Below are positions 2,178 to 23,041 of a DNA stretch of 64,000 nucleotides, piece by piece. The notes below the pieces were generated by a model. The model had not been told where the DNA came from, did not search any database, and saw only the letters and a program-made list of their open reading frames with translations. This DNA comes from Candidatus Microthrix parvicella Bio17-1 (GTDB lineage Bacteria; Actinomycetota; Acidimicrobiia; Acidimicrobiales; Microtrichaceae): positions 1 through 64,000 of the forward strand of contig NZ_AMPG01000005.1 in NCBI RefSeq assembly GCF_000299415.1. Reading direction: 5' to 3'. Each line of letters begins with the position of its first letter. The stretch's first letter is position 1. A program made the position numbers and the translations under genes.

Positions 2178-2262
<85 letters not shown>

Positions 2263-2313
2263 CTGAAAAACCCCTACGGCGGCAAGGGATCCGAGGTGGC
2301 GAAGCCAGGATTT

Positions 2314-4678: not shown

Positions 4679-4867
4679 TCACGAGGCCGGCGTGCCGAAG
4701 ATCTGACTGGCGACTCGGTCTGCGGCGTCCGACTGCATCGGAGGGGTCACGTGGGTGTAGATCTCGCGGGTGATGTGAGTGGACGAGTGGTTGAGCCGGT
4801 CGCTCACGATCTTGATGTCAATGCCCTCTTGAAGCGCCAATGTCGCCCATGTGTGACGGAGCCCGTG
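4679..4867 (-). pseudogene. int: Tyrosine integrase, C-terminal fragment (3' half of split gene)
   Basis: Read from 4867 down to the TGA at 4681-4679, this encodes LRHTWATLALQEGIDIKIVSD, then RLNHSSTHITREIYTHVTPP and a tail ending FGTPAS. It contains the RH part of the HxxRH box, the histidine motif and the catalytic tyrosine (EIYTHV) of a phage-type integrase. The N-terminal 401 codons lie 3.4 kb away at 8234-9438 on the same strand. The reading frame joins exactly if the RIT element and one copy of the 5-bp CCGTG repeat are removed. The ATG-proximal part is therefore intact but separated, and no functional integrase can be made without excision. Confidence 0.9.
4863..4867. repeat. 5-bp flank CCGTG, left of RIT element
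   Basis: CCGTG at 4863-4867 directly precedes the RIT end and recurs at 8234-8238 directly after the other end. It is either a target-site duplication or the crossover sequence shared by target and element. Confidence 0.7.
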
Positions 4868-4889
4868 ATTATGCCGACGTCGGCATAAT
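4868..4889. repeat. Outer 22-bp perfect palindrome at RIT left end
   Basis: ATTATGCCGAC followed by its exact reverse complement. It is separated from the 82-bp left terminal repeat by CATGA. No matching outer palindrome exists at the right end of this copy, but the truncated copy at 493-600 has one at its right end. Confidence 0.8.
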
Positions 4890-4894
4890 CATGA

Positions 4895-4976
4895 TTATGC
4901 CGACCTCCGCGTTATGCCGACCTCGGGGTGTGATCCCTTGCGGGGTGAGGGCTCTGGGGTGTTGATGTCGGCATAA
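4895..4976. repeat. RIT left terminal inverted repeat (82 bp)
   Basis: It begins TTATGCCGACCTCCGCG and ends TTGATGTCGGCATAA. It is the inverted partner of 8152-8233, with identical outer 31 bp and inner about 15 bp and a more variable middle. The three TTATGCCGAC boxes per end are probable recombinase-binding sites. Confidence 0.85.
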
Positions 4977-5030
4977 CGCGGCTTGTGGTGGCCATTGTTT
5001 CTTCTCTGTTCCGAGAAGAAGGAGATGGTC

Positions 5031-6248
5031 ATGTCGATTCCAACCAGCAGGGTCAGCAGGGTCCTGATTGTGGGGCCGTTGGCCCCGTTCGCTGAGCAAT
5101 ACCGGGAGCGGTTGAGGGAGCGGGGTTACACGCTGCGGACTGTTGTGAGTCTGGAGCGTCAGGCGGCGCATCTGAGTCGTTGGCTCCGGGCGGAGGGTTT
5201 GGGCGTCGAGACGTTGAGCGAGACGACCGTTGATGCGTTCGTGAGCTTTCTGCTGGCCGGTGACGGTTTTTCGCCGTCCCGGTTGTCACGTCCGGGGCTT
5301 CGGTGTCTGCTTGTGTTGCTTCGCGAGTTGGGTGTGGTCCCGGCACCGGTTCCTTTGCCGCTGTCGCCCGTCGAGGTGCTGATGGGTTCGTTCGAGCGTT
5401 ACCTGTTGTCCGAACGCGGTCTGGTGGCGGGCACCGTCGTCGGGTATGTGGCCGCTGCGTCATGGTTTGTGACCGGTCTGGGTTCTGGGGCTCTCGGCGA
5501 TGTGGGGGCGGCTGAGGTGACCGCCGCGGTGCTGTCCCGGTCCGGGATGGTGTCGGTGAGCGGAACCCAGAACTTTGTGTCCGGCCTGAGAGCATTTTTG
5601 CGGTTCTGTTTCGTCGAGGGCCACCTCGAGGTCGACCTGTCGGAGGCGGCGTTACCGGTCACGGGCCGGAGACACACGTCGTTGCCGTTGGGAATCCCCG
5701 CTGGCGATGCTGCTGCACTGTTGGGGTCGTGTGACCGTCGGACCGGTCTTGGCCGACGTGACTATGCGTTGTTGATCGTCATGTTACGTCTCGGGTTGCG
5801 GCGCAGCGAAGTGGCCGGTCTTCGCCTTGACGACATCGACTGGCGCTCAGGTGTGCTGGTCGTGGCCGGCAAAGGTGACCGTCGGGACCGGCTCCCGTTG
5901 CCTGCCGATGTCGGCGACGCGATCGCCGGGTATCTCACGCGCGGCCGACCGGCGACTGTGCACCGGGAGGTGTTCATCCGGGCTAAAGCACCGTTCGAAC
6001 CCATCGCGGATGGCACGGTCGCGTCGACTGTCCGGCGTGCGTGTCGCCGGGCTGGTGTGGCAGAGGTCGGATCGCATCGGCTGCGACACACCATGGCCTG
6101 TGACATGGTCACAGCTTTGGTTCCGCTGGCCGAGATCGCCCAGGTGTTGCGTCACGACAGCCTCCAATCGACGGCGATCTACGCCCGGGTTGATGTCGAA
6201 ACGTTGCGTCTGTTGGCCCAACCCTGGCCCGAAGGCGGGGCGCGATGA
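5031..6248 (+). CDS. ritA: RIT tyrosine recombinase A
   Basis: A tyrosine site-specific recombinase of 405 residues, the first gene of the recombinase trio. The N-terminal SAM-like core-binding region (about 20-190) is followed by the catalytic domain. The arginine box is LRLGLRRSEVAGL (about residue 257), the HxxR box is HRLRHTMA (about 349), and the nucleophile lies in TAIYARV (about 383), so all catalytic residues are present. I chose ATG 5031 because AAGAAGGAG lies 6 nt upstream; an ATG at 5025 and a TTG at 4983 are possible but poorly spaced. The 3' end overlaps the next gene by ATGA. It presumably acts with the other two proteins on the 82-bp ends. Confidence 0.9.
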   Translation: MSIPTSRVSRVLIVGPLAPFAEQYRERLRERGYTLRTVVSLERQAAHLSRWLRAEGLGVETLSETTVDAFVSFLLAGDGFSPSRLSRPGLRCLLVLLRELGVVPAPVPLPLSPVEVLMGSFERYLLSERGLVAGTVVGYVAAASWFVTGLGSGALGDVGAAEVTAAVLSRSGMVSVSGTQNFVSGLRAFLRFCFVEGHLEVDLSEAALPVTGRRHTSLPLGIPAGDAAALLGSCDRRTGLGRRDYALLIVMLRLGLRRSEVAGLRLDDIDWRSGVLVVAGKGDRRDRLPLPADVGDAIAGYLTRGRPATVHREVFIRAKAPFEPIADGTVASTVRRACRRAGVAEVGSHRLRHTMACDMVTALVPLAEIAQVLRHDSLQSTAIYARVDVETLRLLAQPWPEGGAR

Positions 6249-7165
6249 ACGCCATGTGCGGTCACGTCGAGGACTACCTCAGGATGCGCCGCTCGTTGGG
6301 CTACAAGCTTGAACGCGCAGGTGTGCTCCTCCCGAAACTCGTCGACTATCTGGAGACCGCTGGATCTCCGACGCTCACAAGCGAGCTGGCGATCTCTTGG
6401 GCCCGCCTCCCCGTTGGGGTGAGCCCGAACCATTGGGCTGCCCGTCTCGCGGTCGCCCGCGGGTTCGCCCGCTACCTACAAACAATCGACCCCGCCACCG
6501 AGATCCCACCGGCGGGGGTGTTCCCCGCCCGCCGGAACCGCCCCACCCCTTACCTGTGGTCTCAGGCCGACATCGCCCGGCTCCTTGATGGTGCTCGGGT
6601 GCTTCGTTCACCGATCCGGGCGGCCACCCATCAAGCCCTGTTTGGGCTGCTCGCAGTGTCGGGGATGCGCGTCGGAGAGGCGACAGGTCTCGACCGAGGC
6701 GACATTGACTTCGAGACCGGTGTTGTCACGATCCGTCACGCCAAACACGATCGGACACGCCTCGTGCCGTTGCACGAAACAGCCGTTGCCGCGCTCGATG
6801 CCTACGCAACCGAACGTGACCGTCTCTGCCCCGCTACCCGATCAGACGCGTTCTTTGTGTCGAGCACCGGGACACGCCTCACCCCCAGCGGCATCGCCAA
6901 AACGTTGCGGCAGATCACCACCGACATGGGCATCCGGGACGCCACAACGGCCCCGACCGCGCACCAGCTCAGACACAGCTTCGCTGTCCGCACCCTGATC
7001 GACTGGCAACAATCCGGGGTGAGTATCGACGGGCACATCGCCATCTTGTCGACCTACCTGGGCCACATCGCGCCGTCGGACACCTACTGGTATTTGTCGG
7101 CGTCCCCCGAGCTGATGGCCACCGCAGCCGAACGGCTCGACACACGGCTCGGAGCCCGAACATGA
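6245..7165 (+). CDS. ritB: RIT tyrosine recombinase B
   Basis: 306 residues, the second gene of the trio, overlapping its neighbours by 4 bp on both sides, which implies translational coupling and a fixed protein ratio. The arginine box is SGMRVGEATGLDRGDID (about residue 141) and the HxxR box is HQLRHSFAVRTL (about 239). The tyrosine region LGHIAPSDTYWYLS (about 280) offers two candidate nucleophiles, Y and Y two residues apart, with the WxxL spacing unusual for the superfamily. This is the usual order and size for the middle RIT protein. The role of each subunit in strand exchange is not known. Confidence 0.88.
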   Translation: MNAMCGHVEDYLRMRRSLGYKLERAGVLLPKLVDYLETAGSPTLTSELAISWARLPVGVSPNHWAARLAVARGFARYLQTIDPATEIPPAGVFPARRNRPTPYLWSQADIARLLDGARVLRSPIRAATHQALFGLLAVSGMRVGEATGLDRGDIDFETGVVTIRHAKHDRTRLVPLHETAVAALDAYATERDRLCPATRSDAFFVSSTGTRLTPSGIAKTLRQITTDMGIRDATTAPTAHQLRHSFAVRTLIDWQQSGVSIDGHIAILSTYLGHIAPSDTYWYLSASPELMATAAERLDTRLGART

Positions 7166-8151
7166 CCGATCTCGCCCCGTCACTGCAGGCCTTCTTCACC
7201 GACCGGCTGATCGGACAACGCGATGCCAGCCCGAACACCATCAGCTCCTACAAGACCACCTTCGGGCTGCTCCTCAGGTTCGCTTCTCAACGGACCGGGA
7301 CATCACCCAGCCAACTCGACATCGACGATCTCGACGCGCCGCTTGTCGCAGCGTTCCTCGGGCACCTGGAGACCGAACGGCACAACACACCAAGAACACG
7401 GAACAACCGGCTCGCAGCGATCCACTCGCTGTTCGCCTACCTCGCCCTCCACCACCCCGAACACGCCGGGACGATCCAACGGGTGCTCGCCATCCCCACC
7501 AAACGCACCCTACGGAACCTCCTCACCTACCTGACCGAACCCGAAGTCGCCGCGCTCCTCCAAGCATGCGACCAACAACGCTGGACCGGCCGACGTGACC
7601 ACGCCATGTTCGTCCTCACCATCCAAACCGGCCTGAGGATCTCCGAACTCGCCGGGCTCACCCGCGCAGATGTCACCCTCGGCATCGGCGCGAACGTGCA
7701 CACCATCGGCAAAGGCCGCAAAGAACGACGAACACCACTCGTTCCCACCACCCGAACGATTCTCAGATCATGGATGGCCGAACAGGCCGGTGACCCGCCC
7801 GATCCGTTATTCCCCACCACCACCGGCAAACACCTGAGCCGTGACGCCATCGAGAAACGTCTCGCCCGAACCGTCACCCATGCCGCCGACAGCTGCCCGT
7901 CGATCCAAACGAAACGGGTCACCATGCACACGCTGCGACACACCGCAGCCATGCGGCTCCTCCTCGCCGGAAACGACATCACCGTCATCGCCCTCTGGCT
8001 CGGCCACGAACAGATCGCGACCACCAACATCTACCTCCACGCAGACATGACCCAAAAACAAGAAGCGATCGACCGTGTCCGCCCCACCAGCACACACCAA
8101 GGCCGATACCAGGCCCCCGACACGCTCCTCGCTTTCCTCGAACACCTGTGA
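7162..8151 (+). CDS. ritC: RIT tyrosine recombinase C
   Basis: 329 residues, the third gene of the trio. It is XerD-like along its whole length: core-binding domain up to about 115, then the catalytic domain with QTGLRISELAGL (arginine, about 157), HTLRHTAAM (about 255) and TTNIYLHADM (tyrosine, about 290). Its TGA is followed immediately by the right terminal repeat at 8152, so coding and repeat abut without spacer, exactly as in the truncated copy at 492/493. The protein is about 60 percent identical by eye to that remnant in the overlapping part, so the two RIT elements are related but not recent duplicates. Confidence 0.9.
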   Translation: MTDLAPSLQAFFTDRLIGQRDASPNTISSYKTTFGLLLRFASQRTGTSPSQLDIDDLDAPLVAAFLGHLETERHNTPRTRNNRLAAIHSLFAYLALHHPEHAGTIQRVLAIPTKRTLRNLLTYLTEPEVAALLQACDQQRWTGRRDHAMFVLTIQTGLRISELAGLTRADVTLGIGANVHTIGKGRKERRTPLVPTTRTILRSWMAEQAGDPPDPLFPTTTGKHLSRDAIEKRLARTVTHAADSCPSIQTKRVTMHTLRHTAAMRLLLAGNDITVIALWLGHEQIATTNIYLHADMTQKQEAIDRVRPTSTHQGRYQAPDTLLAFLEHL

Positions 8152-8233
8152 TTATGCCGACATCAACAACCCGGAACCCGCTCCCCGCAACGGATCCCGC
8201 GCCGAGGTCGGCATAACGCGGAGGTCGGCATAA
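8152..8233. repeat. RIT right terminal inverted repeat (82 bp)
   Basis: It starts TTATGCCGACATCAAC directly after the ritC stop codon and ends GGTCGGCATAA. It is the inverted partner of 4895-4976 with 9 differences by my count. It is followed by CCGTG (8234-8238) and the integrase coding sequence. Confidence 0.85.
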
Positions 8234-9438
8234 CCGTGCAACACGAGGCGGGGGAGCGATTCGTCTGCGTTGGCGCGGTTGAACTGCTCCTGTTTGCGTT
8301 GGAACTCCCGGCTGAACCGCTCTGGGTGGAACGGTCGTCCGTCCGCCATCGAGAACACCAGTCCGTGATTGGCGTAGCCGGGACCACCCAGCAGTCGCTC
8401 AGCGTTCTGAGCGGCCTTCCAGGACTGAAGCATCGAGACGGTGCCGGGGTCGAGCCGGACGACGTGCGCCCGCTTCGTCTTGGGTAGGTCCTTGAAGACG
8501 ATCTCGTGGTCGACCGTGACGACCTGGTGCCCGATGATGGCCGTGCGTGTCTCAAGGTTGACGTCTGACCAGCGCAATCCGAGCGCTTCGCCCCTGCGAC
8601 AGCCCGACGTGGCGAGGAAGAGCCATGCGGGTAGGTACCTCGACTCAGCGACGAACTCGAAGAACTGCCGCACCTGCGTTCCAGTCCACGTGGACGCGCG
8701 CTTGGCTTGGGTGGCCGAGGAGGGAGGCGGTGTTGCAGAGTCGGCGATGTTCCGGCCGACCTTGTTCCACCGAACAGCATCACGGAGGGCTGCCCGAATG
8801 ATGGTGTGGATGTACCTCACCGTCCTGGGCGAGAGCCCATCCTCAGGCGCGGCCTTGACCACGTCTTGGGCATCACGTCGGAGCATTGCCGCTACCGCGT
8901 GGCGGGAAACGTCGTCGATATTGAACGAGGGCTCCGAGTTGAGCATGTCGGCGATCTGCTGGCTGGTCCTGCCATTCGCCCGAGCCTCATGTGCGGCTTC
9001 AACCGCCTCGTCGCTGAATCGCCGACGGCCTGTAGCCGGAACCACCCGCCCCGAGTCGAGCAAGCTGCGGTAGAGCTGGTTGAGGTGCATGGGCGTGAGC
9101 CCGGCAAGGCGAACTGACCCGACATTGGGGATCACGTGCAGGCGGAGGTTGCGCTCGTACGAGCGGAATGTGGACTCCTCCAGCGTGGGCGGGCGCTTGG
9201 TCGGCAGCCATTCGTCGACGAGAAACGAAGCGAACGTCTGTCGCTTGTCGGCCACGTAGGAGCCGTCAAGCAAAGCAGCGTTTGCCCGAGTCTGGGCCGC
9301 CAGCGCCTCCTTCTGGGTGGCGAACCCACCCTGGGAGTACTGCTTCCGAGTCCCATCGGGCCCCAACCCATAGACGTAGTAGGTGTAGGTGCCGCCCCTC
9401 TTCCGGATGTTGCTTCTAGCTGTCCGCTTCGACGCCAT
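8234..9438 (-). pseudogene. int: Tyrosine integrase, N-terminal part (5' part of split gene)
   Basis: A phage/ICE-type integrase with an AP2-like arm-binding N-terminus (RGGTYTYYVYGLGPDG), core-binding domain, and catalytic domain with SGCRRGEALGLRW (arginine, about residue 280). Codon 402 is cut after PRLVLHG by the RIT element; the missing LRHTW...Y part is at 4679-4867. The intact protein would be about 463 residues. It has an unusual insertion of about 60 residues in the core-binding domain (about 130-190, with the HTH-like TSQQIADML). Its start overlaps the end of the XRE gene (9416-10129) by 23 bp, so the two are co-transcribed. The open frame runs on to 8152 through the repeat, but that tail is artificial. 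The likely target was the tRNA-Leu 3' end. Confidence 0.9.
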
Positions 9439-10129: not shown

Positions 10130-10227
10130 GGTGTCTCAATTCAGTGACGCCGACTGCGCTTAATCGCCGCGGCTGGGGAGTACGGTACGCCACTAACCCT
10201 ATAGAGACCGAACCGAAAGAGTCCAGG

Positions 10228-10464
10228 ATGACCCCGATCGACCCACCGAACACGAAGCAGTACCCGCCCTATCTGACAGTCCCGCAGGTGCAGGAACTCA
10301 CGCAGCTGAGCAGGGGCCAGGTGTACCGCCTGATCGAGCGCTACACCGAGACAGATGGAGCCGAGGGGATCCCGTCGGTCCGCTTCGGCCGATGCCTCCG
10401 AGTACCAAGCCACACACTTCTCACCGTGGTCGACTCAGCGACGGCCCGGGAGACCCACCTATGA
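10228..10464 (+). CDS. Excisionase-like helix-turn-helix protein
   Basis: 78 residues, starting at the ATG at 10228, which is preceded by GAGTCCAGG. LTVPQVQELTQLSRGQVYRLIER followed by VRFGRCLRVP is the MerR/Xis-type winged HTH (helix, helix, wing with R-F-G) typical of excisionases and directionality factors of actinobacterial elements. It is divergent from the XRE-integrase pair and overlaps the next gene by ATGA. Its likely role is to bias integrase towards excision. The longer upstream frame to 10144 lacks support. Confidence 0.65.
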   Translation: MTPIDPPNTKQYPPYLTVPQVQELTQLSRGQVYRLIERYTETDGAEGIPSVRFGRCLRVPSHTLLTVVDSATARETHL

Positions 10465-11138: not shown

Positions 11139-14100
11139 ATGATGTCCATCGCCAAGGTCGGCGTCGGCAACGCCGACTACTACGAGAGCCGGATCGGGCG
11201 TTCGCCCGAGGGCTACTACACCGGACGGGGCGACATTCCCGGCGTCTACTTCGGGCAGCTCGCCGAGCGGCTCGAGGCCGAAGGCGAGGCGCTTCCGGGA
11301 GCACTGAAGCGACTGCTCGACGGACAGCACCCACTCGATGGCACGGCACTCCGGCGGCCGCTGGCCGACACCTCAAGCGCGCATGTCGGAGGCTTCGACC
11401 TCACGCTGTCGTGCCCAAAGGACGTGAGCATCCACGCGCTGGTCGGCCCGGCGGAACAGCGGGCTGCTGTCAACGACATCGTCAGCGCCGTGGCCGAGGA
11501 GACGGTGGCCGCAATGGCACAGAGCGCCGGATGGTCGCGCCGGGGGAGAGGCGGTGCAGCGAAGTCCTTCACCGGAGAACTCGGAGGCATCCGCTACGTC
11601 CACCCGGACTCCCGTGCTCACGATCCCAACCTCCACATGCATTTCATCGTGGCCAACATGCAGTGCGTGGACGGCAAGTGGCTCACGTTGGACGGGCGAC
11701 CGCTCTACTCGATGGTGAAGGCGCACGGAATGCTGTTCCAAGCGATGCTGCGCGCCGAGTGCGCCCGAGAACTTGGGTGGGGGTTCGACGACCTCACCCC
11801 CGACGGCCAGGCCACGCTTCGCGAATTCCCCGCTGAGCTCCGGGAACTCTTCTCCAAGCGCCGCTCCCAGGTGCTCCGTGAGAGCCAGCGGCGCCAGGAG
11901 GAATACACCGACGAAACGGGTCGTGAGCTGGGCGGCAAAGCGCTCACCAAGCTCAATGCCCACGCAGTTCTCACCACCAGGGCGCGGAAAGGCGAGCCGG
12001 TGGACCTGGACGATCGGGAAGCAGCGTGGATCCAGGAGGCAGCCGAAGCTGGCTTCGACCTGGCCGAACTCCGAAACTGCTACGGGGCGTCCGGGCCCCG
12101 AGTTGCGATCGTGCCGGACGAAGTAGTCGCCATGGCCATCGGGAAGCTCAGTGCTGACAAGCCATCGTGGAAGGTGGGTGACGCGATGCAGGCGGTTCTC
12201 GCAGAGCTTCCAGTAGTAGCGGCCGACTCATCTGGTGATGTCGTCGACATCGTCACCCGGCTGACCGACCGGGTGCTGGACGACTTCTCCGTGATCGAAG
12301 GGGGACAGCCGTACGAAGTTGTCGGAACCGACGCCCAGTACCCCATGCGCCCCCACACGACGGTCAGCACGATCGTCACCGAGCACCAGGCCATCGCAAC
12401 CGTTCTCAACTCGGAGGGCAGGGGGAACGGTCTGCTGAACCGGTCCAAGGTGTCCGAGGCCGCAATCGGCGAACTTGGGGATGGAGAGCAAGCCGACGCG
12501 GTCACCAACGTCGCAACCGACGGCAACGGGGTCTCGCTCGTGAGGGCACCAGCAGGGTCGGGAAAGACCCGCCTCTGTCGGACACTCGCCAGCTGCTACT
12601 CCGAGGCGGGGTGGAACGTCGTCGGACTCGCTCCCTCTGCAGCAGCGGCCGAGATCCTCCACCAGGAGGCGGAGATCGAGCGCTCGTCCACCCTGACCAA
12701 GCTGCTCGTGGAGAACGAGCACGAGGCGGGACCGATGCGCGGCTACCGACTGGACCGCCAAACACTGGTGATTCTCGATGAGGCATCGCTTGCGTCCACC
12801 CGTGACACGGCGAATCTGATCCAATTGGCCCAGCAGGCCGGATCGAAGCTGGTGCTGGTCGGAGACGACGAGCAGCTCCAGTCCGTCGAGGCTGGCGGGC
12901 TCTTCACGGTTCTCTGCCAGCACTTCGACACCAACGAACTCTCCGAAGTGCGCCGGATGTCAGCTCAGTGGGAGCGAGAGGCGTCGACCGGACTTCGACA
13001 AGGCGACGCCGACGCGCTCGACCAGTACATCGACCACGGACGGGTGCGGAGCGGCACCGCAGAAGATGCGCTGGAGTGGGCCTACGAACGGTGGGCCGAC
13101 GTTCGCAACCGGGGCGGCTCGCTCATGGTGATGGCGCGCACCAACGGACAGCTCGACGATTTCAACGAGCGGGCCAGAGCCCACCTGCGCGGCACCGGGG
13201 AACTCAACGGTCCGGACGTTCCCATTGGAAACCTGGGCATCGCCATCGGCGACGAGCTCGTCACCCGCCGAAACGCACGCTGGATCGTCACCACCAACAA
13301 GTCCCGAGTGATCAATGGCGCTCGGTGGGAAGTATCCCGTATCCGTCACGACGGGGCGCTCGACGTCACGTCACTTGATGGCCGAGGCCGGGCGACGCTG
13401 CCCGCCGAGTACACGATGGCCGACGACCAGCTCAGCTACGGGTACGGATCGACGGTCCACCGCGCCCAAGGCAGCACCGTCGACCAAGCCATCTTCCTCG
13501 CCGACGAAGGTGCGTCGAGGAATCTGTTGTATGTCGCCGCGTCAAGGGCCCGGGAACGCAACGACATCTGGCTCACCCGAGAAGGAAGCCAACCAGCGTC
13601 CGGAAGCACGACGCTGACCGATGACGACATCGACGTACTCAGACAGGTCCTCAAACGAACCGACCAGGAGGCGACAGGCTCGGAGGTCGTCTGGGCCACG
13701 GAGCTGGGCTACGAACTCGACGACGACCGTATCCACCAACTCCTCACCCCAGCGGGCCGTCTTGCGATCCAGCACCGCACAGTTCAGCTCGAACGCGGGC
13801 TACGTGCCCGCAATGTTGGTGCGGATGACGCAAGGTCCGTCGTAGCCACGGCGCACAAGGCCGCAGAGAAGGCAAGCACCGCAGCTGATCGGGCTGACAC
13901 CGACCCCAACCGGTCCCAGAAGCGGCTTGCAGCAGAGGAAGCCCACGGACTGGTAGCCAGGGTCAAAGCGAGGCACGACATCGCCGACCTGCGATCCGAC
14001 GTCGTGCAGAAGGCCGAGCGTCGCGACTCCGCTGAGGGCTTGCTGGACACCGCAGCTCAGCGACTCACCGAGGCCGAAGCGACCTACGACCAGGCACTGG

Positions 14101-14369
14101 AGGTCACCACCACGGCCAACAGCCGGGACCTCGCCATCAGCGACAGTCTGAAGCAACGCCTGGCCCTTGACGACCGAGGTCAGAAGGCCTCGGCAGGAGC
14201 AGGACACGCCATGGCGAGCGCAAGCACCAACCCTCAGCCTGGCACCGGTAGGGCGGGCTGGACGCCCGAACAAACCGCCTACGCCAACGAGCTGCTGCGG
14301 CGCTCCCGCCAAGCCGCCCAACAACCTGTCCCTGGCTTCGAGCAGACGGGCATCAGCCGTGGCATGTGA
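11139..14369 (+). CDS. MobF-family conjugative relaxase-helicase (TrwC/TraI-like)
   Basis: 1076 residues. The N-terminal TrwC relaxase domain has tyrosine pair DYYESR (about residue 15), GFDLTLSCPKDVS, and the metal-binding HDPNLHMHF (about 160-169). A RecD2/UvrD-like helicase follows: Walker A APAGSGKT (about 470), Walker B VILDEASLAS (about 545), late motif VHRAQGSTVDQ (about 773), and an Ala/Asp-rich helical tail. The enzyme nicks oriT, stays bound to the 5' end and unwinds the strand for transfer. The size is normal for the family and all motifs are present. No coupling protein or type IV secretion genes lie nearby, which implies mobilisation in trans. Confidence 0.92.
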   Translation: MMSIAKVGVGNADYYESRIGRSPEGYYTGRGDIPGVYFGQLAERLEAEGEALPGALKRLLDGQHPLDGTALRRPLADTSSAHVGGFDLTLSCPKDVSIHALVGPAEQRAAVNDIVSAVAEETVAAMAQSAGWSRRGRGGAAKSFTGELGGIRYVHPDSRAHDPNLHMHFIVANMQCVDGKWLTLDGRPLYSMVKAHGMLFQAMLRAECARELGWGFDDLTPDGQATLREFPAELRELFSKRRSQVLRESQRRQEEYTDETGRELGGKALTKLNAHAVLTTRARKGEPVDLDDREAAWIQEAAEAGFDLAELRNCYGASGPRVAIVPDEVVAMAIGKLSADKPSWKVGDAMQAVLAELPVVAADSSGDVVDIVTRLTDRVLDDFSVIEGGQPYEVVGTDAQYPMRPHTTVSTIVTEHQAIATVLNSEGRGNGLLNRSKVSEAAIGELGDGEQADAVTNVATDGNGVSLVRAPAGSGKTRLCRTLASCYSEAGWNVVGLAPSAAAAEILHQEAEIERSSTLTKLLVENEHEAGPMRGYRLDRQTLVILDEASLASTRDTANLIQLAQQAGSKLVLVGDDEQLQSVEAGGLFTVLCQHFDTNELSEVRRMSAQWEREASTGLRQGDADALDQYIDHGRVRSGTAEDALEWAYERWADVRNRGGSLMVMARTNGQLDDFNERARAHLRGTGELNGPDVPIGNLGIAIGDELVTRRNARWIVTTNKSRVINGARWEVSRIRHDGALDVTSLDGRGRATLPAEYTMADDQLSYGYGSTVHRAQGSTVDQAIFLADEGASRNLLYVAASRARERNDIWLTREGSQPASGSTTLTDDDIDVLRQVLKRTDQEATGSEVVWATELGYELDDDRIHQLLTPAGRLAIQHRTVQLERGLRARNVGADDARSVVATAHKAAEKASTAADRADTDPNRSQKRLAAEEAHGLVARVKARHDIADLRSDVVQKAERRDSAEGLLDTAAQRLTEAEATYDQALEVTTTANSRDLAISDSLKQRLALDDRGQKASAGAGHAMASASTNPQPGTGRAGWTPEQTAYANELLRRSRQAAQQPVPGFEQTGISRGM

Positions 14370-14696: not shown

Positions 14697-14942
14697 ATGA
14701 GCCGATCACTCGCAGAACTAGCCGAACTCGTCGCCGACACGAACCTCGACCCCTTCAATCGGATGTGCCACGCCGCGTCCCTCACCAACCAGGCGCACGC
14801 TGCCACAATCGAACTTGCCCGATCGTGCGCCCTGCGGGGCGAAGAGAGCCTGGAGGATCTGGGGAGAGTTCTCGCCATGTCGCCCGATGACGTGGGTCGA
14901 CTCATCGGCTGGGAACAACTACGCCTAATAGATATCGACTGA
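14697..14942 (+). CDS. Small hypothetical protein (81 aa)
   Basis: A soluble, mostly helical protein: LAELAELVADTNLD, AASLTNQAHAATIELARSCALRG, LEDLGRVLAMSPDDVGRLIGWE. The last segment looks like an XRE/HTH-type helix pair (LGRVLAMSPDDVGRLIG), so a small DNA-binding accessory of the mobile element is possible. The 3' end overlaps the convergent permease gene by 18 bp. It has no close family that I recognise. Coherent amino-acid composition and position downstream of the relaxase are the main support. Confidence 0.5.
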   Translation: MSRSLAELAELVADTNLDPFNRMCHAASLTNQAHAATIELARSCALRGEESLEDLGRVLAMSPDDVGRLIGWEQLRLIDID

Positions 14943-17081
14943 CTCGGCGCCAGCTGGCACACCAACTTGCTGTCTGCCATGTGCCCAGAGGGCGGCCTCA
15001 ATGACGACCGATGTCGCTGCCCCGCAGAGGATTGCCGAATTGGCCAGCGATAGGTAGTCGAGTTCGGTGATCCCCGATGGTTGACCGGCGGTAACCGCGA
15101 CGATTCCGTAGCCGCACCCGAGCAGGACCCCAACCCACACTGCGGAGTGAAAGCCCCAACGCAACACGGCACGTCGGGTTCGGATGGGTGCAGCGAGCCA
15201 GGCCAGGGCCTGGTCGCTCTGCGACGGGAACCGGATCGTGTTCACGAGCAGCAAGACCACCGCCACACCAAACAGCGCGAGTGCTGACACACCGAGTGGC
15301 TGGACCCACCCGATGATCGGGTTTGGACCCAAGCGGTCCCAACCGCTCACGCTTGAGGGGCCGAAGATGGCATTGGCGTCAGCTTCGAGAGCGTGGGCCT
15401 GGCTGGCCGAATCGACCCGGGCAATCATCTGAACAACCGGCCGGTCGAGCGGCGGGCTGCCAAGCACGAAGACCCCAGGACGAACGGCTGTCGAGCGCTC
15501 GACCTCGTTCATAAACCGTTCGGGGTCCGTTGAGCACCCTTGCGACCCGGGCCCCGCCGGTACTGCCAGTTCTTCGCAATTGGCCACGAACACTTGCCCA
15601 TCGACAACAGTCGCGAACGGAACGTTGGGGAACTGCATAGCGAACTCGGCGAACGTCGGACCATCAATCTCCGAATCAGCGCTGACGGTCATGATGCCAG
15701 GCGGCCCCTCCGACTCCAGGGCACCGGCGTAGGAAGCGAGACTCATCGAGGTCAATACAACTGCAGCCACAACGGTCAGGGTCGTGATGCGAATGAGATC
15801 AGATCCCCGCTGGTCGCCCCGTTGGAACCGACGACCGGCAACCAGCCTCGCAACTCGGTCAGGCGCAGTGAGTATCGCGCCAACCACCGGTAAAACAGCA
15901 ACGGCGACGGTCGGAACGACTGCGACAACCGACGCAAGCACTACAACAAGTCGGAGAGCTCTCAGCTGAGGAGGGAACTGGGTCGTCGCGACGGAAACGG
16001 CGACGGGAACAAGCAACAGGAGGCGTCCGGTCCAACGGATGGTGCGCTTATTGCGCTGCGCTCTCCACGCGGTCACCTTGGGTGTCAGCGCTCCGACCGC
16101 CACCGGCACCAGCAACGCAATAAGCAGTGCGACGACAGCGATGCCAGCACTCGGCCGCAAGTCGCCGGACAAGTACTCGATCGAGCCGAACGGCAACGAC
16201 GTGGGGACACCCAAGATCCCCCACATGACCGCCGACACGATGAGCGCAATCGGCACGCTCAGCGTGGCGGCTTCCGACGCATCGAACGCATCCTGTGCGT
16301 TAGGGCCAGCTCCTAGATAGACCAACGCGTCGCTGCGTTGGGTACGCAACGCCGAGCGAGCGGACAATCCGATCCCCAGCACCAACAGTCCCGGAAGCAA
16401 CAGGCCGAACATGGCTCCGCTCTGAGCTGCTGCTGGAGTAGGGACACGCTCGTCGAGCGAGTGGGGAATCGTTACGAGCCCGCTCGGCATCTCAAATGGC
16501 CCACTTGCCACGCTCGCGCCCAGTTCTTCTGCATCAAATCCCACCAGACTTTGCTGAGGACCTGCAGATGCTCCCACCGATGGAGGTCGTCCCTCCGGAA
16601 CCGTCGCGAACGCCAAAAACTCGCCAGCAAACGCCGTCACATGCTCCCACCGGACATCACGATTGTGTTCATCAACCTCGATACCGAACCGTTCCTGGAA
16701 GCCACCGGGTCCACCTGCGGCCTCAATCAGGGCCGGCGAAACGAACCCTTTCCCTGGCTCCGGTAGATGCCCGCCGAACTCGGCCGGAATCGACTGAGCG
16801 TCGGCACCCAGCCAGTGGATTTCGAACTGGCGCCCATCCAGAATCGGCAAACTCTTGCCAAGCAACGGCACCCCCGCACCGCCGCTACCGAAGTCCACGA
16901 CCGGCATACGAGCAAGATCCCTGGTCTCGTTTCGCTGGCTCGCGGACCAGAAACCCGCTGCGCACCAAGTCGCTGCCGAGAACACGCCTACAGCGATCAC
17001 CACCAGCCAGGCTCGACCTCGCTGACCACCGAGACGCGATACAGCAACGCGCGTGCCCAACTTCGCAATGACACGAATCAA
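14925..17081 (-). CDS. ABC transporter permease, FtsX-like, last gene of SIR2/ABC operon
   Basis: 718 residues with about ten membrane segments: one near the N-terminus (VVIAVGVFSAATWCAAGFW), a cluster between about 225 and 450, and three at the C-terminus. Two large extracytoplasmic regions (about 45-225 and 450-585) separate them; the second has a CEELAVP...GCSTDP pair of cysteines. This is the MacB/FtsX-type layout used by exporters or mechanotransmission systems, not importers. The start overlaps the ATPase stop by ATGA, so the two form one complex. No substrate is evident. Similar two-gene sets accompany lactococcin-972-type bacteriocins, but no such peptide gene is visible here. Confidence 0.75.
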   Translation of the reverse strand: MIRVIAKLGTRVAVSRLGGQRGRAWLVVIAVGVFSAATWCAAGFWSASQRNETRDLARMPVVDFGSGGAGVPLLGKSLPILDGRQFEIHWLGADAQSIPAEFGGHLPEPGKGFVSPALIEAAGGPGGFQERFGIEVDEHNRDVRWEHVTAFAGEFLAFATVPEGRPPSVGASAGPQQSLVGFDAEELGASVASGPFEMPSGLVTIPHSLDERVPTPAAAQSGAMFGLLLPGLLVLGIGLSARSALRTQRSDALVYLGAGPNAQDAFDASEAATLSVPIALIVSAVMWGILGVPTSLPFGSIEYLSGDLRPSAGIAVVALLIALLVPVAVGALTPKVTAWRAQRNKRTIRWTGRLLLLVPVAVSVATTQFPPQLRALRLVVVLASVVAVVPTVAVAVLPVVGAILTAPDRVARLVAGRRFQRGDQRGSDLIRITTLTVVAAVVLTSMSLASYAGALESEGPPGIMTVSADSEIDGPTFAEFAMQFPNVPFATVVDGQVFVANCEELAVPAGPGSQGCSTDPERFMNEVERSTAVRPGVFVLGSPPLDRPVVQMIARVDSASQAHALEADANAIFGPSSVSGWDRLGPNPIIGWVQPLGVSALALFGVAVVLLLVNTIRFPSQSDQALAWLAAPIRTRRAVLRWGFHSAVWVGVLLGCGYGIVAVTAGQPSGITELDYLSLANSAILCGAATSVVIEAALWAHGRQQVGVPAGAESVDIY

Positions 17082-17809
17082 CGTAAGCTCGGCACCATCG
17101 CCAGGTCCACGACGCGATCACACAACGCCGCAACCGCCAGATCGTGCGTCGCCAACAGCAGCGCACGATGTGGGTTGGTGCTCACCTGATCGACCAGCAA
17201 CCGACCAACACGATCTGCGTTTGCTCGATCCAACGCAGCCGTTGGCTCGTCGGCCAGCACCACTCCCGCTGGCCGAACCAACGCTCGCGCAACCGCAACG
17301 CGTTGGCTCTGACCGCCTGACAAAGTTCGGAGATCCCTGCTGGCCAACTCTCCAAGTCCCACCTCCTTCAACGTGAGCTTGGCCTGGTCGAAGGCGCTGT
17401 CAGCCCTCACTCCATCCAGCATCAGGGGCAAGGCCGTGTTCTCGAGCACGTCCAGCTCTGGCAACAACAACGGCGACTGATCTACGCCCGACAAGTTCTC
17501 CTGCACAAACTTGCTGCGCTTGCGGACCGAGAGCCCTCCCAACTCTGTCCCCATCAGTGCGGCCCTGCCGAAGGAGGGCTTCAGTTCACCGCGCAGCCAG
17601 CGGAACACAGTCGATTTGCCTGAGCCAGAAGGGCCGACCAACGCGACGGTTTCTCCCCAGCCAATCTGAAACGACACCGGCCCGACGGCTTGATCTGCGA
17701 ACTCGGAAATGCACGCATCCACCTCCACGGCGGTTGAACCGACGTTCACGGACCCCAGCGGACCGCTTGACGGAGCAGAATCTTGTTTGGGGTCATGGTG
17801 GTCTGTCAT
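17078..17809 (-). CDS. ABC transporter ATP-binding protein (LolD/MacB type)
   Basis: 243 residues with all nucleotide-binding motifs: Walker A GPSGSGKST (about residue 59), Q-loop FVQENLSG, signature LSGGQSQRVAVARAL (about 161), Walker B VVLADEPTAALD, and H-loop LLATHD. It has a short variable N-terminal extension (first about 20 residues, HHDPKQDSAPSS). It pairs with the FtsX-like permease downstream (4-bp overlap) and overlaps the small upstream ORF by 4 bp. It powers the permease. Confidence 0.85.
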   Translation of the reverse strand: MTDHHDPKQDSAPSSGPLGSVNVGSTAVEVDACISEFADQAVGPVSFQIGWGETVALVGPSGSGKSTVFRWLRGELKPSFGRAALMGTELGGLSVRKRSKFVQENLSGVDQSPLLLPELDVLENTALPLMLDGVRADSAFDQAKLTLKEVGLGELASRDLRTLSGGQSQRVAVARALVRPAGVVLADEPTAALDRANADRVGRLLVDQVSTNPHRALLLATHDLAVAALCDRVVDLAMVPSLR

Positions 17810-18078
17810 TGCGATCGCTTTCCAGGATTCGAGCAGGGAGGATTCTGAGCCAAGCCAGGCTTACAGATCGGTTGGCTCATGCGGGACATCGCGGCCGAGC
17901 TCCTCCCAATACCCGACGTGATCGATGTAGACCACGAAGCGTCGGGCACGTGCTGGAAGCTGCCCCTGCCAGTGTCCGGCAACGCTTCGTAGGTCATCGA
18001 GCCAGATCGAAGCCTGCGCATGGTTGGGTGCGCGCAGCCACATTCAGGCACTGTCTGGACCTCAAAGTTGAGACGCAT
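17806..18078 (-). CDS. Small ORF between SIR2 and ABC genes (possibly frameshifted)
   Basis: The ATG at 18078 overlaps the stop of the SIR2 gene (TAATG). The 90-codon frame ends overlapping the ATPase start (ATGA), so spacing argues for a real gene. However, after MRLNFEVQTVPECGCAH the composition becomes Ser/Pro-rich. A second frame (18043-17861) reads as a better globular protein (WLRAPNHAQASIWLDDLRS..., RRFVVYIDHVGYWEEL...). Either a frameshift has broken one gene, or only one of the frames is used. No family recognised. Treat the product as uncertain. Confidence 0.35.
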   Translation of the reverse strand: MRLNFEVQTVPECGCAHPTMRRLRSGSMTYEALPDTGRGSFQHVPDASWSTSITSGIGRSSAAMSRMSQPICKPGLAQNPPCSNPGKRSQ

Positions 18079-19313
18079 TATTGACCCTCTAGACGCTCTA
18101 TCGCCGCATCAAGGCCGTTCTTCGCAGTCTCCTTGATATGGGTCAGTTGATCGGGCCTTCTCGGGTCCAGCGCAAGCGCGTCGGTGAAGTGTGCGCCAGT
18201 GCTTTCGTCGGAGATCAAGTCATCGGGACCCACCAGGACGATGCGGTTGTCAGAATTCGATGCCAACCATCTCCGCAGAACCGTGTTGATGTGACTGTCT
18301 TGAAATGAATAACCAACGACCAGTAGCTGCGAAACGTTGAGCAACCCAAGACGAAAGCCATCAAACAATTCCAAGAACGGACCTTCCGCCTGAAGCTTCG
18401 CCCCTTCTCCAAAGATAAGCTCTGGCCCCTCACTCCGTAGAGTTGCATTGTCCAAGTCAACAATGCGCACCGATTCGTTGGATCTAACCCAGTTTATAGA
18501 CCCGTGAAGTTTGTGTAGATGTATCCCTTTGTCGTGAAATGCTAGGCCATTATTCTGGTCCCATCTCTCAACCCCTAGAGCGACTGACACACCCAGGCTC
18601 GCGGCTCTACTCTCAATGGTGAGGTCGTAGTTGAGGGTGCCAATCAGAAGGGGGCCGGGCATCCCTTGTGAGAGTCGAATTAGAGGGTCCAGGTAGGTGA
18701 GATCGGCTGACTCATCGGGCGTAAGCACTAGCGGCAACGCACGGCCAATCGCAAGGCTCGTGGAACGGAACCTCCCTTGGTGGCGGGCACCAGGACGGGA
18801 AACCACATCCACGATCGCCTTGGCGGCGTCAGAAGAAATTCGACTGCGTTTGATCGAGGTAGGGCGATTCCACGACCTATTCTTGTTTGACAGGAACCCG
18901 TTGAGTATCGCCGAGTTCTTATCCACTTGCTCAATTATCGGATCAGCATAGGATTCAATCAACTTCGAAAGCTTGTTGTCGACGCGCCTAACCAATTCCG
19001 AGCGCGGCACCTCGTAGCTGTCTAGGCCATCGATAGTCGGGTCCCACGCCTGGACAAAGGGCGAGATCGGCGATCCGCCTCGGTCTGCTAGCAGCTCAAT
19101 GGCCGCTGCAAGGCGCTCGGCGCTGATTGGAAGGCGCGGATCAAACCCAAGACGACCTTGCTCAGCTTGTAGGACGCCAAGGACATAGAAGGCGACAGCA
19201 GCTTGCGCATCGTCGAGCGAATCAAGAATGCACCCGGTGAGTTGATTCGTCGTGGGAAGTCCCGCATCAACTGATGCGCCAGCGCCAAGGAGCACTGCGA
19301 AGGGTGCATGCAC
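18078..19313 (-). CDS. SIR2-like NAD-binding protein (probable NADase defence effector)
   Basis: 411 residues with the SIR2-like (SIR2_2) pattern: LLGAGASVDAGLP at residues 8-20 (NAD-binding glycine loop), LLIGTLNYDLTIE (about 224), LHKLHGSINW (about 268, with the catalytic-type His) and LLVVGYSFQDSHINTVL (about 334). Zn-binding cysteines of true sirtuin deacetylases are missing, as in phage-defence SIR2 effectors that hydrolyse NAD+. The base composition is clearly less GC-rich than its neighbours, suggesting recent transfer. It is the first gene of an operon with overlapping junctions (TAATG) into a small ORF and an ABC exporter. Whether the exporter acts with it is unknown. Confidence 0.75.
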   Translation of the reverse strand: MHAPFAVLLGAGASVDAGLPTTNQLTGCILDSLDDAQAAVAFYVLGVLQAEQGRLGFDPRLPISAERLAAAIELLADRGGSPISPFVQAWDPTIDGLDSYEVPRSELVRRVDNKLSKLIESYADPIIEQVDKNSAILNGFLSNKNRSWNRPTSIKRSRISSDAAKAIVDVVSRPGARHQGRFRSTSLAIGRALPLVLTPDESADLTYLDPLIRLSQGMPGPLLIGTLNYDLTIESRAASLGVSVALGVERWDQNNGLAFHDKGIHLHKLHGSINWVRSNESVRIVDLDNATLRSEGPELIFGEGAKLQAEGPFLELFDGFRLGLLNVSQLLVVGYSFQDSHINTVLRRWLASNSDNRIVLVGPDDLISDESTGAHFTDALALDPRRPDQLTHIKETAKNGLDAAIERLEGQ

Positions 19314-19596: not shown

Positions 19597-19726
19597 CGAG
19601 CGCCCGAAACTGCCCGATACGGACCGATAGCGGAAGCGACGGAGCATCACTCAGAACGCCAGGAACCCCTGCAATTGCAGTACAAACTGCAACTCGGCGA
19701 CACTGATCAACACGGCCGCTGCGGGA

Positions 19727-19748
19727 GTTCAAGTCCCCCCTCCGACAC
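19727..19748. repeat. attR core (22-bp copy of tRNA-Leu 3' end)
   Basis: A perfect 22-bp match to 2242-2263. The 5' part of a tRNA is absent here, so this is not a second tRNA gene but the right attachment site. Confidence 0.9.
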
Positions 19749-20561: not shown

Positions 20562-21075
20562 GTCCCGAGGGCTCGCTCGACCGTTGGCGGGCGACGCGGT
20601 CTCTGCTGCTCAGGCGAGAATGGCTAAGGACGCACTGGCTTCGATCGACCTCGCCAAGCTGAGCGAATGGGCGCCAAGCACGCGGTGGGACGGGTACTCG
20701 GTGAAGTCGGGCAGACTCCGAGCAAACTCGCGAGAAGGGCGATCGATGACGCGTTGAGAGACGCAGTCGGTCTGAACCCGGTTGACGACCCTGACGACTA
20801 GTCGGGCGAGCCCGTGCCCGTTTGCAAGCGATCCGCCATCCACAGATCCGACGCGCCACCCGATCGGCGGCGTCACGTGGGTGTATGTCACGCGCGTGGC
20901 GCGGGTTTCGATGCTTACGCTCGATGAGCTCGGATTGTCCCCTTCGTCCGAGCCGGTGCTGTCCGGCATGGCCAAGGGCAAGTACGGGGTCCGGCATCCT
21001 CCGGCTTCAGGTGCGGTCAGAAGCCGCACATTGGGGGTACGCTACCCGAACACACGTTCGTCAGGAGGTTACCCG
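20562..21075. other. Remnant-rich stretch upstream of methyltransferase
   Basis: No intact gene. A 44-codon plus-strand frame (20667-20801, MGAKHAVGRVLGEVGQTPSK...) has natural composition but no identified family. At 20855-20900 the minus strand reads TRVTYTHVTPP, matching the integrase tail (IYTHVTPP) seen at 4679-4867 and 22859-23041; a 23-bp stretch around the TCACGTGGGTGTA core is identical to the latter copy. It is probably scar tissue of earlier integrations. The methyltransferase ribosome site (AGGAGG at 21063-21068) closes the region. Confidence 0.5.
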
Positions 21076-22858: not shown

Positions 22859-23041
22859 TCAGATTCCGAAGTCCTGGCTGGCGACCCGATCCGCTGCATC
22901 CGACTGCATCGGCGGCGTCACGTGGGTGTAGATCTTCCTCGTGATGTGAGTGGGGGAGTGATTGGGCCGGTCGCTGACGATCTTGATGTCGATGCCCACC
23001 TGAAGCGCCAGGCAACGCAAGGTATGACCCTCCGGCAGTTG
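22859..23041 (-). pseudogene. Integrase C-terminal remnant
   Basis: The minus strand reads LALQVGIDIKIVSDRPNHSP, then THITRKIYTHVTPPMQSDAA and DRVASQDFGI stop. This is nearly the same as the integrase tail at 4679-4867 (IDIKIVSDRLNHSSTHITREIYTHVTPPMQSDAADRVASQ). The LRHT box upstream is degenerate (GHTLRCLAL) and nothing further upstream is integrase-like, because the ArsR-type gene begins within 50 bp. It is the leftover tail of a third related element at this locus. Confidence 0.8.

Follow-up and report, generated by a model that had tools for sequence, protein, structure and literature searches.

Introduction

RIT (recombinase-in-trio) elements of Cupriavidus metallidurans, Acidithiobacillus and other bacteria are trios of tyrosine-recombinase genes whose mobility, in the accessible part of the account consulted here, is left undemonstrated (PMC3414803). 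The same text resolves their ends only to an inverted repeat and an "overlapping palindromic sequence", presents no convincing recombination site in its accessible sections, and finds no easy way for three recombinases to cut four strands (PMC3414803). Copies are placed there in a Tn6049-related transposase gene and in radC, and the available text of a second account gives insertions in radC and in IS66 tnpA (PMC2864759). The recombinases form the subgroups RitA, RitB and RitC, with two core-binding domains in RitA and an extra C-terminal helix in RitC (PMC8138268, partial text), and a comparative table, in the form available to us, lists both the target specificity and the empty site of RITs as untested (PMC10214605). 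In the accessible portion of the latter work, the SE (strand-biased circularizing integrative) elements have a circle joint in which an imperfect inverted repeat encloses a 6-bp spacer; the spacer leaves a fingerprint next to one end (PMC10214605). Here we analyze a RIT element near the start of contig NZ_AMPG01000005.1 of Candidatus Microthrix parvicella Bio17-1 (assembly GCF_000299415.1), in a stretch of 64,000 nucleotides (positions 1 to 64,000, forward strand) that we call the window. The element splits the integrase gene of a mobilizable island, and its comparison with other RITs suggests how such elements may be joined while mobile and which codons they may enter.

Results

A RIT element splits an integrase gene inside its HxxR box

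The two parts of the integrase gene lie on the minus strand on either side of the RIT. The 5' part (8236-9438) runs as far as the catalytic His (..LPRLVLH) and encodes the arm-binding and SAM-like regions together with the catalytic domain's first half. The 3' part (4682-4867), assigned by translation, Pfam and homologue alignment, encodes the remainder of the catalytic domain (HGLRHTWA..); read from 4867 to 4682, it starts with HGLRHTWATLALQEG (also given as HGLRHTWATLALQ) and ends with ..TPAS and a stop codon. Both parts match Pfam Phage_integrase, over adjoining profile stretches (6-122 and 130-169 of 172). Homologues were searched in 33 whole genomes of the same family, the Bio17-1 genome included: an integrase match is present in 21 of them, and outside Bio17-1 a single long match exceeds 50% identity, while one further genome (G023) holds a broken integrase in short pieces at 55-59% identity. 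This best match outside Bio17-1 is an intact 482-residue frame in another genome of the family (L018), to which the two window parts align without a gap, at residues 22-415 (52% identity) and 416-474 (85% identity). The halves are thus contiguous in a relative, a comparison that put the preliminary description of this locus at risk and bore it out; the break lies between H and LR of the HxxR box. The pentamer CCGTG flanks the insert as a direct repeat (4863-4867 and 8234-8238), and the deletion proposed earlier, of 4868-8233 together with one CCGTG, does restore the gene; the accompanying anatomy overlooked the palindrome and the second core treated below. We regard the insertion itself as practically certain. 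Cut between the His and the Arg of its box, the integrase should be inactive, and its silencing is well supported.

The insert is an ordinary RIT by its anatomy. Three consecutive genes on the plus strand, ritA (4983-6248, likely starting at the ATG at 5031), ritB (6245-7165) and ritC (7162-8151), all of them open, overlap by ATGA and match Phage_integrase with E-values of 1.4e-25, 2.6e-22 and 4.2e-33, respectively. Among NCBIfam models, XerC/XerD profiles give the Rit proteins their best scores, which stay far below the cut-offs, and RitA combines a SAM-like match at residues 38-92 with a XerC-profile match from residue 137 on. The genes are enclosed by an inverted repeat of 87 nt at 87% identity (4890-4976 and 8152-8238). 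The left terminal inverted repeat (4895-4976) contains the arm TTATGCCGA, repeated 17 bp further in, and the true terminal arm TTATGCCGACC starts at 4895; the right terminal inverted repeat spans 8152-8233. From arm to arm the element measures 3,339 bp (4895-8233), which fits the RIT size of about 3.5 kb with terminal inverted repeats. The ends of the insert are asymmetric. On the left, an outer overlap T (CCGTGA, 4863-4868, of which CCGTG is the direct repeat) is followed by a perfect 20-bp palindrome (4869-4888) made of two recombinase arms back to back (TTATGCCGAC/GTCGGCATAA) and by an inner overlap O2 (TCATGA, 4889-4894), without counterpart at the right end, where the right arm is directly followed by the far-side outer overlap CCGTGC (8234-8239). 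The palindrome appears to belong to the element.

Within the 13 contigs of the Bio17-1 genome, the full-length window RIT is found once, the next match by score reaching 69% over 1,209 of 3,366 bases; since it stands full-length at one place only, a collapsed repeat is unlikely to have created the junction. Outside Bio17-1, DNA of the window RIT has matches in three genomes of the family (33 searched), the best at 65% over about 1 kb.

A palindrome lies on one side of most RITs with called ends

A scan of 84,980 species genomes by RitC alignment yielded at least 79 loci in many phyla, and these were laid out with the window RIT and two more RITs of Bio17-1 to give 82 elements. Counterparts of RitA, RitB and RitC occur in the same order at 75 of the 82 loci, as judged by best matches. 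A further RitC search of 296 genomes returned mostly weaker tyrosine-recombinase matches, with six outside Bio17-1 below E 1e-80. The ends were scanned for an arm, an inverted arm, a spacer and an arm (palindrome 16-24, spacer 4-9, the usual sizes being slightly favoured). The 145 end regions include 41 with scores of 22-24; the 435 shuffled regions reached 20 at most. A strict count demands that palindrome and spacer sum to 26 bp, which partly imposes the sizes 20 and 6; it gives at least one palindrome (20 bp, spacer 6) in 49 of the 82 RITs. Both ends were called in 40 RITs: 37 of them have the palindrome at one end and not at the other (19 left, 18 right), and three have it at both (L070, L130 and L132). 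In L132 the two ends carry one and the same palindrome, oriented alike; its right copy lies at a contig end. Nine more RITs were called on the palindrome side only, and in L063 (spacer 7) and L140 a palindrome is seen by eye despite the missing automatic call.

The six bases outside the palindrome resemble the reverse complement of the six inside, with a mean agreement of 5.08 of 6 over 51 palindromes (27 exact) and at most 2.75 of 6 in 1000 shuffles; L119, whose palindrome has no outer bases, does not enter this statistic. The six bases on the far side agree equally well (mean 5.08, 36 RITs).

Two smaller samples were inspected as well. From plasmids, 12 RITs were chosen among 60 listed matches (382 records matched), crop and human pathogens being avoided; a palindrome stands on one side by eye in 9 of the 12, and the automatic score is at least 20 in 6. 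Viral contigs, searched by the palindrome pattern alone, gave six hits, five with adjacent RIT genes and a sixth that ends there.

Three simpler readings of the palindrome were discarded. The shuffles rule it out as a chance feature, and an origin in the target is ruled out by the intact integrase homologue, which is contiguous without it. Nor is the palindrome tied to a particular end of the element, such as the left, since the calls split 19 to 18 between left and right.

A two-core joint is a likely attachment site

The comparison suggests a model that we consider likely. The RIT would have entered the integrase gene by target-specific integration mediated by tyrosine recombinases, its mobile form being a circle with the ends joined in the order R arm, O1, 20-bp palindrome, O2, L arm. 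Such a joint would consist of two adjacent dif-like cores (arm, 6 bp, arm), with O1 and O2 near reverse complements of each other. A third 6-bp overlap would come from the target, often on codons of a catalytic motif; in the window it would be CACGG(G), the His-Gly codons of the integrase HxLR box. Crossover at O1 would place the palindrome to the left of the element; crossover at O2 would place it to the right, with the element reversed and the palindrome side of the target unchanged. Since O1 and O2 are near reverse complements, either could therefore read the same target overlap with the element turned round. In the window, the segment between the C-terminal and the N-terminal side of the integrase accordingly reads CCGTGA, palindrome, TCATGA, ritABC, CCGTGC. 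Mobility is suggested by the presence of one element at several sites and by the target-site repeats; that both cores are used is likewise our interpretation.

Genomes with several copies of one RIT bear on this model. Other RITs of Bio17-1, several of them at contig ends, mostly show the same layout where their ends are readable, namely target, 6 bp, 20-bp palindrome, 6 bp and arm at one end and target, 6 bp and arm at the other. One of these, RIT', reaches into the window start with its right end: its R arm ends at 574 and is followed by O1 (TGCGGC, 575-580), the palindrome (581-600), the outer overlap ACCGCA (601-606) and, from 607 on the minus strand, a target gene of DUF222/HNH type. Positions 1-149 of the window are the end of an insertion sequence (IS) inside ritC', 100% identical to L011 9058-9206, and contigs C4, C5 and C8 are broken by copies of RIT' and their IS. 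The target at the C5 end matches Pfam DUF222 and that at the window start gives only a sub-threshold HNH match; the two flanks are 77.5% identical as protein. The RIT' bodies at C4 and at the C5 end are 99.8-100% identical over 2.6 kb, and those at the window start and in C10 share the same IS junction in ritC' (430 bp at 100%). The right ends of the latter two face opposite target sides, and for this reason the IS-marked RIT' appears to have moved. Its asymmetric palindrome points the same way with respect to the element whether it stands at a left or at a right end. Within one genome, the palindrome lies left in some copies and right in others for RIT', for a RIT of Desulfopila sp. IMCC35006 that targets integrases and for one of Cryobacterium aureum Hh31 that targets rve-type transposases. 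By reading, the outer overlap equals the overlap predicted from sister copies without any assumption in four of seven palindrome-bearing insertions, namely both Cryobacterium copies and the Desulfopila insertions L176 and L177. For the Cryobacterium element the model gives CACGAC as O1 and GTGCTG as O2.

A separate arrangement was noted at the C2 end and the C1 start of the same genome (L011 and L015), where a RIT is apparently inserted in the ritC of another RIT, at the motif of the catalytic Tyr (YLHA|DMT, read by eye). The inserted RIT carries an IS3-like transposase open reading frame between ritB and ritC.

A label-free test compared 99 translated flanks, drawn from 61 insertions or single junctions, with both-sided RITs and those without palindrome left out. 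Homologous flanks pair like with like in 90 of 98 cases (72 palindrome with palindrome, 18 far with far), the pairs not being independent, and in 43 of the 47 pairs in which the element is flipped. The test took C4 and C8 as the far ends of RIT'; with C10 instead of C8 the target side is the same and the class unchanged.

Several observations weigh against the model. An automatic palindrome call is lacking in 33 of the 82 RITs, a number of which stop at a contig end or offer a single readable end; L096, L115 and L139 have both ends and no palindrome, and the same holds for three of the 12 plasmid RITs (L197, L198 and L205). Pattern searches found the two-core circle joint in none of the viral contigs and in none of the 296 genomes; a transient circle would presumably leave no joint there. 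In the window RIT, T (CCGTGA) matches the self-complementary O2 (TCATGA) at four of six positions only. Among the multi-copy insertions, the overlap of L173, whose partner end is unknown, is off by one base. So is that of RIT' at the C5 end, which is exact only if its partner is C8, whereas the shared IS points to C10; the overlap of RIT' at the window start fits only if its partner is C4. Finally, eight flank pairs are unlike, involving L128, L120, L068/L073 and L140/L202; by reading, those of L128, L120 and L068/L073 are insertions elsewhere in one transposase family, and the L140/L202 pair is unexplained.

In L096 and L115, the target gene is represented on either flank by its N-terminal half, each from a different copy, which looks as though the palindrome had been lost in a subsequent exchange between two insertions.

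RITs recur on catalytic-motif codons of mobile-element enzymes

To name the target genes, junction flanks were translated in frames chosen by a codon-position measure and assigned partly by motifs read by eye, with Pfam counts as support. Named by eye in this way, 64 loci with a located end comprise 42 genes for transposases, recombinases or a reverse transcriptase, 12 other named genes and 10 unassigned ones. The 42 mobile genes include nine integrases, ten transposases of IS256 type, five IstB, two IS21 IstA and two other transposon-type AAA genes, three IS66, four rve-type and two IS701 transposases, and one each of IS630, ISAs1, IS3, group II intron reverse transcriptase and serine recombinase. 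The 12 others are DUF3489 (four), HNH (two) and one each of RadC, ArdC, SNase, C5 methylase, DUF3987 and MarC. Pfam was run on 183 of 184 junction pieces (one antisense window piece was omitted) from 97 flanks of 61 loci; it matched Phage_integrase 15 times, Transposase_mut 14, IstB 8, rve 6, DDE_5 4, IS66 4, RVT_1 2, RadC 1 and Resolvase 1, where one locus may count repeatedly. In 124 control pieces taken 2 kb further out, Phage_integrase was matched four times and rve and IstB once each, and Transposase_mut is absent among the 25 of 36 families listed for them.

Many junctions lie on motif codons. They fall at HG|LRHT and HTLR|HSFATH in integrases, at WQRCR|VHFMRN and CDGL in IS256-type transposases, at LLCID|ELGYMEL in IstB, at PGLWF|QWDYGDG in IstA, at YAD in the reverse transcriptase and at SRLARNNA|DWH in the serine recombinase. 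The WQRCR|VH codons of IS256-type genes are entered at the same site in Mesorhizobium and Pseudarthrobacter. Integrase boxes are entered at LR|H by one RitC clade of 26 rows and at H|xLRH by the window RIT and L063, both outside that clade. L063 is the nearest RIT among the matches listed of the species-genome scan (RitC identity 73%), and it interrupts a different integrase at these very H|xLRH codons, oriented the other way; the preliminary description, which interpreted the element, the split and the island correctly, missed that the site does not look accidental. Target class follows the RitC tree, with 29 changes compared with a mean of 46.3 and a minimum of 40 in 300 shuffles (61 labelled of 89 rows, 23 classes). 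Among the plasmid RITs, ArdC/zincin genes are the targets of L201 and L203 (annotated) and of L199 (by reading), and an integrase box is that of L200 (by reading). The TCATGA that adjoins the left arm of L063 is identical to O2 of the window RIT and overlaps the codons of a His-Asp box; because of this match, the inner overlap of the window RIT may go back to a former His-Asp target.

These patterns suggest that RITs often aim at active-site codons of mobile-element enzymes, and that such motifs are targeted by sequence, and not by survivorship alone, seems to us fairly likely. A bolder joint proposition, to which we lean only slightly, is that RITs are active-site-seeking parasites of mobile elements and natural silencers of them, landing by two cores on the codons of one or a few catalytic motifs per RIT lineage: integrase HxLRH, an IS256-type motif, the Walker B motif of IstB, the first Asp of DDE enzymes, YAD(D) of reverse transcriptase, RadC and HNH. 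On that proposition the 6-bp overlaps would serve as address and record of former targets, TCATGA preserving CATGA of a His-Asp box while the present target is His-Gly, and thanks to the double core an element could read a given asymmetric address whichever way round it lies. Other points pull the opposite way: ordinary genes are also entered (SNase in L092, MarC in L064, a response-regulator-like gene in L174), the naming of targets is partly by eye, and the share of mobile genes would be inflated if insertions in them persist better, as they may.

As to individual targets, ArdC-type antirestriction genes are broken at the HxTGHxSRLxR stretch of their metallopeptidase-like part in L201, L203, L199 and L121. 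In L174, from Desulfopila, the RIT end abuts the response-regulator-like gene at a VDDE motif, by reading.

Alternative explanations

Each insertion could instead create the palindrome anew, for instance through a hairpin or a template switch on the side of the target that is cut first; this would agree with its fixed target side, with inner six bases that are the inverse of the outer six and with its resemblance to the terminal arm. We consider this unlikely, as the asymmetric RIT' palindrome stands in one orientation to the element at left and right ends, the palindromes of L103, L116, L117 and L128 are clearly unlike the terminal arms of their own elements, and the left and right palindromes of L132 agree in sequence and orientation (with the contig end at the right one). 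An assembly artefact at the junctions is extremely improbable. It is true that RIT' copies break contigs of Bio17-1 and that assembly around RITs is imperfect there; the window RIT, however, has no second full-length copy, both of its junctions lie in one contig with matching direct repeats, and the same architecture recurs in unrelated genomes.

The choice of site, in turn, might reflect near-random insertion, survivors being seen in dispensable mobile genes and the motif matches arising by selection or chance. Mobile genes are indeed dispensable and common around such elements, so survivorship must contribute, and some targets are not mobile genes. Near-random insertion is nevertheless quite improbable as the full account, given that the same codons are hit in different phyla (integrase LR|H and IS256-type WQRCR|VH), that the window RIT and L063 share a site in opposite orientations, that target class follows the RIT tree and that flanks 2 kb away show little enrichment. 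It is also conceivable that the insertion is a reversible switch, in which excision of the RIT at the outer CCGTG repeats would restore the integrase when needed. CCGTGA and CCGTGC do form a near-perfect direct repeat and the three rit genes are open, but nothing shows excision or regulation, and the similarly working SE elements are reported, in the part of the source available, to leave no empty site (PMC10214605); we judge such a switch very improbable.

The interrupted integrase belongs to an island at tRNA-Leu

The integrase had been attributed to a mobilizable tRNA element of about 17.5 kb, and the expected parts are present. A tRNA-Leu gene (GAG; 2178-2263, plus strand, ARAGORN) is the attachment gene; its 3' end forms attL (2238-2263, plus strand), a 26-nt direct repeat identical at 25 of 26 positions to attR (19723-19748, plus strand), 17,485 bp away. 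The 22-nt core of the repeat is exact at attL and attR and occurs nowhere else in the window at up to five mismatches. Between the repeats lie an HTH_17-like protein and possible excisionase (10144-10464, plus strand; 25.6 bits, below the Pfam cut-off of 27) and a MobF/TrwC relaxase-helicase identified by profile matches (11139-14369, plus strand). Direct repeats of a tRNA end, an integrase, though broken, and a relaxase together characterize an integrative mobilizable element. The island is probably immobilized unless the RIT leaves via its outer repeats; that it is locked in the chromosome is plausible, although the outer direct repeat would permit precise excision, if RITs excise.

Within 14925-19313 the island also encodes an ABC ATPase with a 718-residue neighbour of no Pfam family, and a SIR2-domain protein with a weak NCBIfam match, far below the cut-off, to a SIR2 anti-phage-associated family. 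In the scan of the larger open reading frames, no drug-resistance family is named among the island matches except the unspecified ABC ATPase. Beyond attR stand two decayed tails of the same integrase family, at 20863-20898 (83% over 36 nt) and 22866-22997 (85% over 132 nt), which suggests repeated arrivals at this tRNA-Leu.

Discussion

The comparison yields an attachment site that is precisely specified and can be tested, in which a 20-bp palindrome stands between two 6-bp cores, with the circle joint predicted base by base, and a suggested landing rule, often on catalytic-motif codons of mobile-element enzymes. The integrase target and the palindrome of the window RIT are instances of a pattern that would give RITs a concrete way of moving. 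If the proposed reading is true, RITs would be site-specific recombination systems with conserved protein motifs as addresses, natural silencers of transposases and integrases across bacteria, and a widespread natural brake on other mobile elements. Neither the motifs that RITs target nor a double core was described in what our literature search brought up, though subscription papers could hold such a description.

Several known systems share parts of this organization. The arms resemble those of XerCD/dif, with the form GCATAA-6 bp-TTATG; XerCD/dif has one core and serves chromosome resolution, whereas RIT joints would have two. The Tn554 family uses TnpABC, not RitABC, and a single target, radC. 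Its likeness to RITs lies in several recombinases, site-specific insertion and a 6-bp footprint (PMC10214605, accessible sections). SE elements and GInts likewise carry an operon of recombinases and differ, as far as the available text describes them, by one core per joint, four core genes, larger cargo-bearing elements and no extra palindrome (PMC10214605, PMC5385486). Their core set, in the same partial sources, includes srap/ginD and a recombinase-like gene without catalytic motif; in the window RIT, the rit genes fill 4983-8151 between inverted repeats that end at 4976 and resume at 8152, and the other open reading frames there merely overlap rit genes. Inteins and homing elements also land in the most conserved, catalytic stretch of a gene; unlike them, RITs are not spliced out, so the gene entered is broken. 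With the RITs described so far, as their accessible accounts present them, the window element shares three adjacent RitA/B/C genes with short overlaps, a length of about 3.5 kb and an inverted repeat with a palindrome, and what our analysis adds to those accounts is the proposed two-core joint, the 6-bp overlaps, the side-switching palindrome and the apparent preference for catalytic codons (PMC3414803, PMC2864759).

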